Made by a program: the position numbers and the translations under genes. Positions 54,301 to 64,000 of a stretch of 64,000 nucleotides of DNA are shown here, in pieces. Within the stretch, counting starts at the first letter, position 1. Each line of letters begins with the position of its first letter. The stretch is from Pseudomonas sp. P5_109 (GTDB lineage Bacteria > Pseudomonadota > Gammaproteobacteria > Pseudomonadales > Pseudomonadaceae): contig NZ_CP125380.1 in assembly GCF_034009455.1 (NCBI RefSeq), forward strand, positions 4,911,501 to 4,975,500, written 5' to 3'. The notes under the pieces were generated by a model. That model was not told where the DNA came from. It searched no databases and saw only the letters and a list, made by a program, of their open reading frames with translations.

Positions 54301-57143
54301 GGGGCCAGCACCAGTGCCTGCTCGATGGCCGGATGGCTTTGCAGGCGATCCTGGATTTCTCCCAGCTCGATGCGGAAGCCACGGATCTTCACTTGATGGT
54401 CGATGCGCCCGGCGTACTCGATGCTGCCATCGGCGCAGTAACGCGCCAGGTCGCCGGTGCGATACAGGCGTGCACCCGGCTCGGTGGCGAACAGGTCCGG
54501 CACAAACCGCGTGACGGTCAAGTCGGGACGCTGGTGATAACCACGGGCCAGGCCGGCACCGCCGACGTACAGCTCACCGACGCAGCCCTTGGCCACCGGG
54601 TTCAGGCACGGGTCGAGCACGTACCAGCGCAGGTCGGCGATCGGTTCGCCCAGCGGCGAGCTGTTGGCGCCATCGAGATCGGCGCGGGACAGCGGACGGT
54701 AAGTCACATGCACCGTGGTTTCGGTGATGCCGTACATGTTGATCAACAGCGGTTGCTCGTCGTCGAAGGCGTCGTACCACGGCCGCAGGCTGGCCACGTC
54801 CAGCGCCTCGCCACCGAACACCACGTAACGCAGGGCCATGCCTGGCGCGTTGGCGCAGGCAAACGGCATCAATTGGCGGAAGGCCGAGGGGGTCTGGTTC
54901 AGCACGGTGACGCGCTCATCTTTCAGCAAGCGGGCGAAGTCTTCCGGGGAGCGGCTGACCGCGTGGGGCACCACCACCAGCTTGCCGCCGTAGAACAACG
55001 CGCCAAAGATTTCCCACACGGAAAAGTCGAAGGCATAGGAGTGGAACAGGCTCCAGACATCGTTCGCATTGAAGCCGAACCAGTGTTCGGTGGCGCTGAA
55101 CAGCCGGGTCAGGTTGCTGTGGGGCAGCAGCGTGCCTTTGGGTTTGCCGGTGGAACCGGAGGTGTAGATGACGTAGGCCAGGTTCTCTTCAGCAGTCAGG
55201 TTCGGCAGGTTATCGGCGCAGGCCTCATCGAGCCAGTCGCTGGCGTGATCGAGGCAGATCACTTCAATGCCTTCGTGCAACGGCAGACGTGGCATCAGCG
55301 CCGAATCGGTCAGCAGCAGGCGCGTACCGCTGTCGGCGAGCATGTAGGCCAGGCGATCCTGCGGGTAATCCGGGTCCAGCGGCACGTAGGCGCCACCGGC
55401 CTTGAGGATCGCCAGCAGGCTGACGATCATTTCCAGTGAACGCTCCAGGGCGATGCCCACCAACACATCCGGGCCGACGCCGCGCTCGCGCAGGCGATGA
55501 GCGATGCGGTTGGCGCGACGGTTCAGCTCTGCGTAAGTGAGGGTGATGCCGTCGCAGGTCACGGCAATGTTGTGCGGGTGCGCGGCGGCCTGGGCTTCGA
55601 TCAGTTGATGGGCGCACAAAGCGTTCGCCTGATCGACGTTCAATACGGCGCTGCGGTTCCAGTCGAGCAATGTGCTCTGCTGCTCGCAAGCGTCGAGCAT
55701 GCACAGGTCCGCCAGGGCAACCGTGCTGTCGGCGCAGATCGCCTGCAACAGGTTCCTCCAGTGCCGGCCGAGGCGCTCGATGGTCGAGGCGTCGAACAGT
55801 TCGGTGGCATACACGAACGAGGCGTGGATGCCCTCGTCGCTTTCGACGGTGTCGAGCATCAGATCGAACTTGGTGGTCTTTTCGTCCCAGATCAGCGGTT
55901 CGACGCTCAGGCCCGGCAAATCCCAGCGTTGTGGATCGCCGCTGTCGCGCTGGTGGTTGAACATCACCTGGAACAGTGGCGTGTGGCTCAGGCTGCGTTC
56001 GACGCCCAGGCCATCGACCAGTTGCTCGAACGGCAGGTCCTGATGGGCCTGCGCGCCGAGTGCCGCGGCCTTGATCTCGGCCAGCAATTGCACAAACGGC
56101 TGGTCGGCCCGGGGCTGGCTGCGCAGCACCTGGGTGTTGACGAAAAAGCCCAACAGGTTTTCCACGTCCTGGCGGGTGCGGTTGGCAATCGGCACGCCGA
56201 CGCGAATGTCCTGCTCGCCGCTGTAGCGGTGCAACAGCGTCTGCAAGGCGGCCATCAGCAGCATGAACAGGGTGCAGCCTTCGCGGCGGGCCAGCTCGCG
56301 CAGGCGAGTGGTCAACTCGGCGCAAATTTGCAGTTCGAGGCTGGCGCCCTGCTGGCTCGGGATCGCCGGGCGACGGCGGTCGCTCGGCAGGGTCAGCGGC
56401 GGGTGCTCGTTGCCCAACTGCCCGCGCCAGTAATCAAGCTGGCGCTCGGCCTCGCCGGCCTCCAGCCACAGGCGCTGCCAGCGGGCGAAATCGGCATATT
56501 GAATGCCCAACGGCGGCAGCTGCGTGGCCTGCCCGGCACTGAGCTGTGCATAAAGCTGCGTAAACTCTTGCAGCAGGATCGGCAACGAACCGCCATCGGT
56601 GACGATGTGATGAAAGGTCAGCACCAGCACATGTTGCCGGGCATCGAGGCGGATCAGGTGGCAACGCATCAACGGGCCGTGCTGCAGGTCGAACGGCTGC
56701 TCGGCGTTGAGGGCGATCTGGCGTTGCAGCTCGATGTCGTCGGCGGCAGTGGCCTCGACCAGCGGGGTGTCCATCTGCGGGTGAATCTTTTGCAGCACTT
56801 GCTGTTCGTCGAAGACGAACGTGGTGCGCAACACCTCATGCCGCTGCACCAGTGCGCTAAGGGTTTGCGCCAGTGCGTCGCGGTTCAGCTCGCCGTTCAG
56901 GCGAAAGGCACCGGTCAGGTTGTAGGCCGTGGCCTGGGGCTGCATCTGCCAGAGAAACCACAAGCGCTGTTGCGCGTAAGACGCTGGCAACGTATCGACG
57001 CTGCGGTCCCGTGGCGGGATCGGCAGCAGTTCCAGGGTCAGCCCCTGAGCGTGCATCTTTTCTTGCAACGCACGCCGGGCGTCCGCGCTCAAGCCGCAGA
57101 AACGCTGGGCCAGGGTCATCATTCTGTCCGGTGCAGCACTCAT
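45339..57143 (-). CDS. pvdD: Pyoverdine peptide synthetase, last three modules and thioesterase (Thr-E, Ser, OHOrn)
   Basis: 3934 residues. Order: C1 (HHIVTDGGS near 181), A1 (TSGSTGKPKG near 660), T1 (near 1054), E (HHLAVDG near 1238), C2 (HHILLDGWS near 1701), A2 (near 2169), T2 (near 2549), C3 (HHILMDGWS near 2760), A3 (near 3225), T3 (near 3611), thioesterase (GWSLGG near 3746). Pocket residues: A1 D-F-W-N-V-G-M-V-H-K, the Thr code; A2 D-V-W-H-M-S-L-I-D-K, a Ser code; A3 D-G-E-C-C-G-G-V-T-K, acidic as expected for a basic side chain, probably hydroxyornithine. The E domain makes the Thr D-allo. The thioesterase releases the chain, with terminal hydroxyornithine likely cyclised. Its start overlaps the upstream synthetase stop by 4 bases. 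The name follows the TE-bearing PvdD of other strains. Confidence 0.93.
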   Translation of the reverse strand: MSAAPDRMMTLAQRFCGLSADARRALQEKMHAQGLTLELLPIPPRDRSVDTLPASYAQQRLWFLWQMQPQATAYNLTGAFRLNGELNRDALAQTLSALVQRHEVLRTTFVFDEQQVLQKIHPQMDTPLVEATAADDIELQRQIALNAEQPFDLQHGPLMRCHLIRLDARQHVLVLTFHHIVTDGGSLPILLQEFTQLYAQLSAGQATQLPPLGIQYADFARWQRLWLEAGEAERQLDYWRGQLGNEHPPLTLPSDRRRPAIPSQQGASLELQICAELTTRLRELARREGCTLFMLLMAALQTLLHRYSGEQDIRVGVPIANRTRQDVENLLGFFVNTQVLRSQPRADQPFVQLLAEIKAAALGAQAHQDLPFEQLVDGLGVERSLSHTPLFQVMFNHQRDSGDPQRWDLPGLSVEPLIWDEKTTKFDLMLDTVESDEGIHASFVYATELFDASTIERLGRHWRNLLQAICADSTVALADLCMLDACEQQSTLLDWNRSAVLNVDQANALCAHQLIEAQAAAHPHNIAVTCDGITLTYAELNRRANRIAHRLRERGVGPDVLVGIALERSLEMIVSLLAILKAGGAYVPLDPDYPQDRLAYMLADSGTRLLLTDSALMPRLPLHEGIEVICLDHASDWLDEACADNLPNLTAEENLAYVIYTSGSTGKPKGTLLPHSNLTRLFSATEHWFGFNANDVWSLFHSYAFDFSVWEIFGALFYGGKLVVVPHAVSRSPEDFARLLKDERVTVLNQTPSAFRQLMPFACANAPGMALRYVVFGGEALDVASLRPWYDAFDDEQPLLINMYGITETTVHVTYRPLSRADLDGANSSPLGEPIADLRWYVLDPCLNPVAKGCVGELYVGGAGLARGYHQRPDLTVTRFVPDLFATEPGARLYRTGDLARYCADGSIEYAGRIDHQVKIRGFRIELGEIQDRLQSHPAIEQALVLAPSVNGSQQLVAWFTASGDDKDVRQSLREHLQAGLPDYMVPAHLIKLDHWPLTSNGKLDRNALPKPDAALAQQAYTAPMDDLQSELAAIWQDVLKLERVGIDDNFFELGGDSIISIQVVSRARQAGIRITPRDLFQHQTVQSLAKVAVRSAGLIIDQGPVRGEVLLTPIQHWFFEQQIDARHHWNQSLLLELREPLDSGCLQQALAALLEHHDALRLRWHQVDGVWRQAQAEQWSSAEVLWQRQAADADELLTLCNAAQASLNLQDGPLLRTMLVDMGVAGQRLLLVVHHLAVDGVSWRLLLEDLQTAYAQARQAEPLRLPAKTSAYQAWAARLQKHAQSPELATQAAYWQAQYHDVAVQLPADNPQGSVASQHAVSVETVLDSTFTRQLLQDAPAAYRTQVNDLLLTALARVLGQWTGQPSTLVKLEGHGREDLFDDIDLTRTLGWFTSIFPVKLSPVGDLADRVKAVKEQLRAVPDKGIGFGILRYLANVGLEDLPSPQITFNYMGQFDASFDEQAPWRPAKEGGGAEQGASAELDRGLSINGQVYAGQLRLSWTFSGEVFKAQTVQRLADAYALELQRLIEHCLGGAGGLTPSDVPLVRVDQAQLDALPLAASQIQDILPLSPMQQGMLFHSLFAPDAGAYVPQMRVDVQGLDVEAFGNAWQQTLARHEVLRAAFFSESNGSRPLQVIVADATLPLTVLDWRDQSGLPQALDQLADEDRLRGFDLTAAPLLRLTLVRTASDIHHLIFTNHHILLDGWSTSQLFGEVLQRYSGVMPAPGVGRYRDYMSWLGTRDRAACEAFWLEQLHSFAEPTRLAGALPAPVAGQGGGHRTLHLSLDRAATERLSGFTRQARVTPNTLLQAAWLLLLQRYTGQQTVAFGATVSGRPSELQGIEQQIGLFINTLPVIATPHPERTVSQWIDEVQALNLKLRDVEYTPLADVQRWAGNAGEALFDTLLVFENYPVAQALEEGNTSALKFSGISHHDQTSFPLAIAAELGECLDLRFNYDTALFSAEAIAGLSARLLALLDAMVSAPQQPLGRLSLLDAAQTARQVEGFNRTAQTWADVRPVYQCFEAQVLQTPEAPALVFAGQTLSYRQLNQQANQLAHHLRSQGVGAEVLVGIAAERSLELVIGLLAIMKAGGAYVPLDPDYPRERLEHMFDDSGVHLLLTQRHLLGQLPIPPATTAICLDDMGGLLDGLSEANLPCVVGPQSLAYMIYTSGSTGKPKGAANHHEALYNRLAWMQGAYPLDGRDTVLQKTPFSFDVSVWEFFWPLMTGARLAVAAPGAHRDPAQLVSLIEQYQVSTLHFVPSMLQAFVQGEGFEHCASLRQIMCSGEALSADLQHSLFRVLPNVGLYNLYGPTEAAIDVTHWTCIDDGGISVPIGYPIANLVTYILDDSLQPQVQGCVGELYLGGIGLARGYHHRPELTAERFVASPFGERGERLYRTGDLARYREDGVIEYVGRIDHQVKIRGLRIELGEIEACLLEHPAVREAVVIALDVGKSKHLVAYVVGDAALDLLKQHLRNALPEHMQPSHVLLLDQLPVTPNGKLDRRALPQPEQQVREYVAPRNTVEATLQAVWQALFEVPQVGMHDNFFELGGDSIVSIQAVSRARKAGLSISPKHVFSHPTLAELATVAQPVVADEPVPALVAPAVKIELSDAQYQALALTADEVEDVYPLSPMQQGMLFHSVQDGDSGLYVNQIEVGVRGVDGPRFREAWADAARRHAILRTAFLWEGDKEPLQVMLRDAPTLLTELDWRGLDDQPARVRQLALEERERGFSLNRAPLLRLLLVRLEDDRYRLIWTYHHILMDGWSVSRLIGEVLRHYSGAEHEPVAAYRDYIDWLGQQVAEASEAFWKGKLSNLEGATHLARALPVKAPQAGYHAIYTHLSAGQTARLQAFAQQQQVTLNTLVQAAWLLLLQRYTGQRTVTFGATVSGRPETLNGSENMLGLFINTLPVVNSVPTEVSVGDWLRDIQAYNLDIRDFQQTPLSDIQRWAGQGGQSLFDSIIVFENQPVDRTLREWNGDSLRFEDVSDFGLTSFAMDLMVSLDEGLRIEYMHQRDQFDLATVEILRSHMESLMQRLCDDAGRAVGELGLLTLDEGRALDGELPVVAEGDETPVHELIRQRARLQPEHTALVLSYAERDAEHLSYAELDRRSDALAVHLLEQGVQAEDVIGVFMERSLELVVSLLAVMKCGAAYVPLDPQYPQERLRYMMADSDMRLLLTQERLRDSAQLNPGTAMVAVDRLNLDVDVAAPSCAVHAEQLAYLIYTSGSTGKPKSVAVAHGPLSMHVQAISELYEMDAGNRELHFMSFAFDGAHERWITALISGSTLVIRDNTLWTAEQTLAVLQRQRISVACFPPAYLLQLAEHAELQGGDPPPVRIYCFGGDAVPDATFERVKHRLKPQYLVNGYGPTETVVTPLLWKIAVDGHCQAMYAPIGQRVGTRSLHVLDMDLNPLPVGMVGELYIGGRGVARGYHRHPWQSAERFVADPFSAEGGRLYRTGDLVRRREDGVFDYVGRIDHQVKVRGFRVELGEIEARLREQAGVNDALVVVRDNGQGPQLVGYVVATQDDGLGPRCQAALRESLPDYMVPTQVVVLPRFPLTPNGKLDRKALPAPAFSGRDYVAPRTPLEWALADIWQQVLGIEKVGITDNFFELGGDSLRTLKVISKVRALNEPGFQLKLRDMMAKPTIAGLSGVDEQPVRQSPQPLLLLNQPVGDQPALFCLHAGFGTVFDYEPLARRLDGERTVYGVQCRMLLDRQWHDTSLAQMAADYVEAIRARQPQGPYHVLGWSLGGALAMLVSDLFEQQGQRVAFVGLVDSFVPTQANAVASADEWRVDLAEFLGAALGMDGEVIARALSSESTGDFDAVARIIRAVIDSQSDQASGYALLGADELAQTFMVSTRLKALSRQVETLPIPQAGLHCWWADGNPTAERATLERQQPRLRKVQTVTAGHFDILQMDECLDAVVTALAREVVAEF

Positions 57144-64000: not shown

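Follow-up and report, generated by a model that had tools for sequence, protein, structure and literature searches.

What do an orphaned condensation domain, an oxygenase gene and a condensation-like domain without its catalytic motif do side by side? This arrangement is found in a window of 64,000 nucleotides from Pseudomonas sp. P5_109 (positions 4911501-4975500, part of one 6.96-Mb contig), where the genes are transcribed from the minus strand in the order upstream synthetase, oxygenase, a protein of 1032 residues and a synthetase of 3934 residues. The upstream synthetase ends in a condensation (C) domain; the 1032-residue protein opens with the condensation-like domain, here called the interface (I) domain, followed by an adenylation (A) and a thiolation (T) domain. 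Very probably this is a single histidine-incorporating pyoverdine module that is split over two polypeptides, with a trans-acting beta-hydroxylase encoded between them. It is an ordinary case of a conserved and widespread layout, not peculiar to this genome. The coordinates are listed in Table 1.

In the complete genome the upstream synthetase has 3077 residues and the domain order C-A-T-E-C-A-T-C, where E is epimerization. In its part inside the window the Pfam Condensation match covers residues 404-831 and nothing follows it, so a preliminary description of this DNA was right that the Lys synthetase ends in a C domain without an A domain behind. The same description had given the split module as 57140..62410: the region is correct, but the terminal C domain starts at about 62791, beyond this limit. 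The domain looks active: it contains the motif HHIVADDG, at about 62381-62401, and HHxxxD is kept in 43 of 44 upstream terminal C domains, the window included (L044, in our numbering of loci, has HQ). As a separate observation, the motif has Asp where HHxxxDG has Gly; at this position Asp or His is found in the wider Pseudomonas group of the window, and Gly in most distant relatives.

In the 1032-residue protein Pfam finds a weak and partial Condensation match (77 bits, residues 35-305), and then AMP-binding, AMP-binding_C and PP-binding, as expected from the A-T order described before. The lack of HHxxxDG and its replacement by TPASSFDEAS are confirmed: in all 43 aligned N-terminal domains, that of the window among them, both histidines of the motif are lost and its Asp is retained. 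Since this loss recurs in every domain while the motif of the terminal C domain is kept, the missing histidines are due neither to chance nor to assembly error. The interface domain has the condensation fold (VIA-align). In a quick tree of 47 domains, with the long rows L079, L046 and L078 flagged and starter, dual and heterocyclization references left out, the window domain and 16 others form one clade (17 of 47, SH-aLRT 100), apart from E and other C domains. The check on condensation subtypes suggested earlier has hence been made, and among the subtypes sampled it places the domain in a clade of its own and not in an active one. His-type and Asp-type interface domains form a single clade, and the domain is present across Pseudomonas, Nitrococcus, Massilia, Variovorax and a Nitrospirales metagenome-assembled genome (MAG).

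The A domain behind it has the code DSALIAEVWK. With an exchange of Ile and Val at one position in some, this code is found in 41 of 42 readable loci including the window; L025 is read without the last position, and L037, L044 and L047 have no usable A domain. L051, which comes from a different bacterial family within the same taxonomic order, has its upstream oxygenase fused behind a C domain and carries the code DLTKIGHVGK. By the code tables we take DSALIAEVWK to be His, as in the preliminary description, and DLTKIGHVGK to be Asp, in agreement with the published division of beta-hydroxylases into His and Asp types.

The oxygenase carries the putative iron ligands of the pattern HxE...H, as HNE and H325, and keeps the distal His and Arg. 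A quick tree of 58 oxygenases, made without named reference sequences, places it in a His-type group of 22 rows (SH-aLRT 98), all of them from interface-A loci. A second group (SH-aLRT 100) contains ten fused enzymes and the stand-alone L149, in whose locus no interface domain was seen. The third group (SH-aLRT 96) contains 13 stand-alone enzymes: ten come from stretches without a detected interface domain, while L034, L035 and L161 are second oxygenases of His-type loci. The context of the ligands is FPHNEHSY in 19 of the 22 His-type rows, L[FY]HNES[SA]H in the second group and PLHNEQAY in 11 of the 13 rows of the third; distal His and Arg are kept throughout the tree except in L144, which is gapped there. 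The preliminary description had an SyrP-like oxygenase at this place. An oxygenase is indeed there, of TauD type, but it belongs to the separate His-type clade: the stand-alone relative that appears SyrP-like is L149, and the window enzyme lies outside the clade of L149. Among 149 Pseudomonas genomes, 77 have an oxygenase match at E <=1e-40, and 18, the window's included, have a best match with an identity of 54% or more, followed by the next best at 42%. Besides the window's own, six of these 18 have stretches of 19-20 kb, all of His type (L138, L160-L164). The pairing of the His type, an oxygenase with interface-A(His)-T in a siderophore cluster, is also what we find in the window.

How general is the split? 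The order C-ending protein, oxygenase, interface-A occurs in 42 of the 44 loci of the set obtained with the oxygenase as query, the exceptions being L044, with C and oxygenase only, and L047, without C and without interface domain. The 42 include L046, which has two oxygenases between the C and the interface domain and a different code, and L025, whose frames are broken in the I-A-T and the next genes. A frameshift or an assembly artefact was considered as the cause of the split and is ruled out by this shared gene order.

When interface domains are defined by a profile score of at least 100, no HHxxxD and an A domain behind, there are 76 rows with the added loci, 66 of them distinct, and none of the 66 has another domain before it in its protein. 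Upstream in the 76 rows lies a free oxygenase after a C-ending protein (64), a C-oxygenase fusion (10) or a doubled or cut arrangement (2; L046 and L051, the latter whole in L078). A sequence search gave 45 proteins, and the 22 inspected (P0029-P0050) all start with an interface domain. Further, a search with the interface profile in 369 genomes of the class gave a match at 1e-10 in 52; at most four candidates were scored per genome, and the matches inspected are those for which a locus was obtained, 30 in total. In 27 of these the match is an ordinary C or E domain, and interface domains are found in L048 (the window's own), L051 and L056. Two variants of the layout were also seen: L035, L036, L038-L040 and L042 have a free-standing C gene flanked by two unlike oxygenase genes, and interface-A(His)-T comes after the second of these; L138 and L160 hold two systems in one cluster, a C-oxygenase fusion with I-A-T and a stand-alone oxygenase of the His type that has a separate I-A protein.

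From the observed layout, the lost and retained motifs, the clade, the fold and the codes we infer docking, timing and product. The 1032-residue protein would activate His and load it on its own carrier, the interface domain, without catalytic histidines, would hold the oxygenase near this carrier for hydroxylation of His at its beta-carbon, and the terminal C domain of the upstream Lys protein, acting in trans, would then join the growing peptide to the carrier with beta-hydroxy-His. An interface domain with a trans beta-hydroxylase, giving a beta-OH-His pyoverdine, is what the preliminary description had proposed, and the interface clade, the motif, the code and the oxygenase clade support it.

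Several observations weigh against this scheme. The contact between oxygenase and interface domain is itself something that we infer, and L046 combines an interface-like domain with a different A code. Most loci were fetched by the oxygenase query, so finding an oxygenase there is in part a consequence of the selection; where the interface domain stands in its protein, and that a C domain precedes the oxygenase, do not depend on it. Identity to the window is highest for the oxygenase, followed by the A and terminal C domains, and lowest for the interface domain, which comes last of the four parts in each of the 41 loci that allow the comparison; this counts against a docking role unless the contact surface is small. 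Third-group oxygenases are found beside plain C-A-T proteins in L141-L144 and L146, and an interface domain is therefore unnecessary for such chemistry in general. The last two points favour the explanation that the protein begins with a dead C domain, retained solely as a structural partner for the A domain, and that the oxygenase finds the His carrier unaided. We consider this improbable, as the interface domain is kept from Pseudomonas to the Nitrospirales MAG, its His and Asp types form one clade, and the domains found outside the window by the interface profile (L051/L078 and L056/L079) are also preceded by an oxygenase. The count of 66 of 66 for domains that are first in their protein and preceded by an oxygenase points the same way, weakened by the oxygenase-based fetching. 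Low conservation also fits a domain that was released from catalysis and retained its fold and perhaps a small contact surface. It is even less probable, to the point of being hardly credible, that the substrate of the oxygenase is a different residue or free His. Similar oxygenases do act on Asp, but the gene adjoins a His-coded module in 41 of 42 loci read, and the active-site context is clade-specific, with FPHNEHSY in the His type against the [LY]-type HNES[SA]H of the fused Asp enzymes.

An addition to the split His module, not an alternative to it, is that the interface domain also docks the upstream synthetase and replaces the usual N-terminal docking segment. It would bind the basic tail of the upstream C protein and the basic N-terminal stretch of the oxygenase, one after the other, and this would account for the splitting of the module. 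We put this forward tentatively, as a possibility that falls somewhat short of an even chance. It is favoured by the distance from the upstream stop codon to the interface domain: the median is 6 residues in 72 rows (range -219 to 41, its lower end coming from the broken frame of L025), compared with 51 residues (56 rows, range 12-135) for C-first proteins after a T-ending protein, where the docking segment has its place. The interface protein of the window lacks this N-terminal segment of about 50 residues. For C-first proteins after an oxygenase gene the median is 92 (20 rows) with intergenic bases counted; all these medians include overlapping loci.

The tails differ as well. Three adjacent Lys/Arg within the last 35 residues are found in 17 of 23 clusters of upstream C tails (mean 7.7 basic and 2.7 acidic residues) and in none of the 26 clusters of T-ending proteins, which are acidic on average: 0 of 18 for I-A-T tails (3.9 basic, 6.9 acidic) and 0 of 8 for others (1.1 and 8.6). 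At oxygenase ends the count is 2 of 38 clusters. Two adjacent basic residues do not discriminate (33 of 38 oxygenase ends, 23 of 23 C tails). Against the docking idea, the control of C-ending proteins outside the system has 3 rows, two of them (L025, L137) from broken frames. The I-A-T protein of the window has an acidic C-terminal tail, LEALFDEV, common to close relatives and opposite in charge to the upstream basic tail.

In the N-terminal extension of the His-type oxygenases, the other putative docking partner, a single residue ahead of G49, namely R17, is fully invariant among 19 aligned sequences, and V28, P40 and P45 are nearly invariant. In a rough test, a basic pattern at the oxygenase N-terminus is found in 15 of 16 non-redundant His-type enzymes against 1 of 24 others (L133, a fused Asp type), with anchors misplaced in at least 9 of the 24 controls (L086, L097, L126, L128, L134, L135, L138, L147, L148) and in 1 of the 16 (L040). 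The anchor pattern failed in 40 of the 66 His-type rows and in 34 of the 68 others, many of them near-copies; these were dropped, which left the 16 and 24 non-redundant rows, and the segments tested may extend upstream of the true start. By eye and with assumed starts, no basic pair precedes the TauD core in 10 of 11 non-His stand-alone oxygenases (L139-L144, L146-L149, L151), the exception being L151 with one KR. In fused Asp types the linker between C domain and oxygenase holds a related-looking basic stretch (KADKLGKFLKK and similar). By position matrix the likeness between tail and N-terminal motif is weak: 4 of 18 tails have p<0.05, with a Fisher p of 0.001 for sequences that are related. 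The idea that the interface domain is unusually acidic was rejected; its mean net charge, -17.1 (17 domains), is hardly unlike that of terminal C (-13.1, 15), other C (-16.2, 11) and E domains (-14.5, 4).

The more specific version is a hub with two clients, in which the hydroxylase, and after it the upstream C domain, is bound by the interface domain through a short basic peptide. Given the weak formal likeness of the motifs and the uninformative interface charge this remains a lead, and we regard it as rather unlikely. If true, a charge-inverted docking, by a basic and not the usual acidic tail, and an alternating occupancy would explain why C and interface domains never share a chain here, and hydroxylation would be a checkpoint before condensation.

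How does the module relate to known systems? It belongs to the known IBH_His/interface system: like the window, IbetaH_His has a TauD-type oxygenase and a condensation-like domain without HHxxxDG before His A-T in a siderophore cluster, and no difference appears among the features compared, with the split and the basic tails outside this comparison. The product of IbetaH_His is L-threo beta-OH-His, and a siderophore His beta-hydroxylase with an interface domain is reportedly described by Reitz et al. 2019. The IbetaH_His family is named in PMC12971057, and other papers give antiSMASH 8 profiles for siderophore beta-hydroxylases and interface domains (PMC12230676), list "I (interface)" as a bacterial C subtype (PMC10212144) and state that the hydroxylation of Asp takes place on the T domain-bound residue (PMC8949500). 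In a limited literature search, with Reitz et al. 2019 outside its coverage, neither the basic tails nor a strict separation of C from interface domains was found in print.

The fused IbetaH_Asp systems (L078, L131-L138, L160) have the same order of C, oxygenase and separate I-A-T protein; they differ in that the oxygenase is fused behind the C domain, and the Asp-type code was read in L051/L078, the others being labelled by oxygenase clade. Stand-alone TbetaH_Asp enzymes, probably those of L139-L144, L146-L148 and L151, also lie beside synthetase genes. Unlike the window, they have no interface domain detected in the fetched stretch, form a separate clade that excludes the window oxygenase and, in 9 of 10 by eye and with assumed starts, have a short N-terminus without the basic motif (L151 has one KR). 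The X domain of glycopeptide synthetases lies in the last module and has the motif HRxxxDD/G and a P450 partner; the window has TPASSFDEAS, a domain before A and a TauD partner. Common to both would be the use of a condensation fold to bring an oxygenase to a substrate on the carrier, as PMC11546977 describes for the X domain (4tx2, 4tx3, 6m7l).

Table 1. Features of the split module and adjoining synthetases, in window coordinates.
Feature	Position	Strand	Basis or remark
Upstream Ser-Lys synthetase, part inside window	61361..64000	-	remainder outside window (L002:1862-11095)
Terminal condensation domain, LCL-like, of Ser-Lys synthetase	61496..62791	-	Pfam PF00668, 304.6 bits; HHxxxD; groups with LCL-like domains
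Basic C-terminal tail (IKRRSANR) after terminal C, 44 residues, stop codon included	61361..61495	-	
Stand-alone Fe(II)/2-oxoglutarate oxygenase, candidate His-type beta-hydroxylase, 352 residues	60250..61308	-	TauD PF02668, E 8.3e-42; motif; clade
Basic motif MGRGARKSLST in N-terminal extension of oxygenase	61243..61275	-	
I-A-T protein, 1032 residues	57140-60238	-	
Interface (condensation-like) domain, residues 1-430 of I-A-T protein	58949..60238	-	motif, tree, fold
Degenerate motif TPASSFDEAS in interface domain	59813-59842	-	
Adenylation domain, code DSALIAEVWK (read as His)	57464..58930	-	Pfam; code; code tables and published IBH_His-His link
Thiolation (carrier) domain, proposed His holder during hydroxylation	57227..57436	-	PF00550
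Next synthetase, 3934 residues, C-A(Thr)-T-E-C-A(Ser)-T-C-A-T-TE (TE, thioesterase)	45339..57143	-	substrates from code tables

PvdN, PvdO and PvdP exceed the NCBIfam cut-offs within the window and lie beside a peptide-export ABC transporter and a TonB siderophore receptor, which makes this a pyoverdine locus. The other A codes of the assembly line are DVWHASLIDK, DGEAHGTVVK, DFWNVGMVHK, DVWHMSLIDK and DGECCGGVTK, presumably for Ser, Lys, Thr, Ser and an Orn derivative. From the A codes together with the E domains, the peptide after the chromophore is predicted to be D-Ser, Lys, beta-OH-His, D-(allo)Thr, Ser and (hydroxy)Orn, in this order. A pyoverdine of this order, Ser-Lys-OHHis-aThr-Ser-cOHOrn, is reportedly made by strain 9AW, a structure that our literature search did not bring up. 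According to a table in PMC4219678, OH-His occurs in the pyoverdine of P. entomophila L48.

Elsewhere in the window there are a peptidase M60-like protein with a mucin- or carbohydrate-binding module (2905-5514) and a hybrid sensor kinase with two solute-binding stretches, receiver and Hpt domains (12526-15753). Long plus-strand frames lie opposite the 3934-residue synthetase (49065-54203). Pfam matches none of the three tested (49065-49742, 49779-51650 and 53058-54203), which look like chance frames.

In summary, a His-hydroxylating siderophore module is supported from raw sequence, and it predicts one extra iron ligand in the pyoverdine of this strain. The survey gives a testable rule: in everything examined, C and interface domains are on different polypeptides and the oxygenase is encoded between them. 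Should the basic tails turn out to serve for docking, they would reveal how a C domain and a tailoring enzyme alternate on one carrier, and would be useful for transferring beta-hydroxylation into other synthetases.

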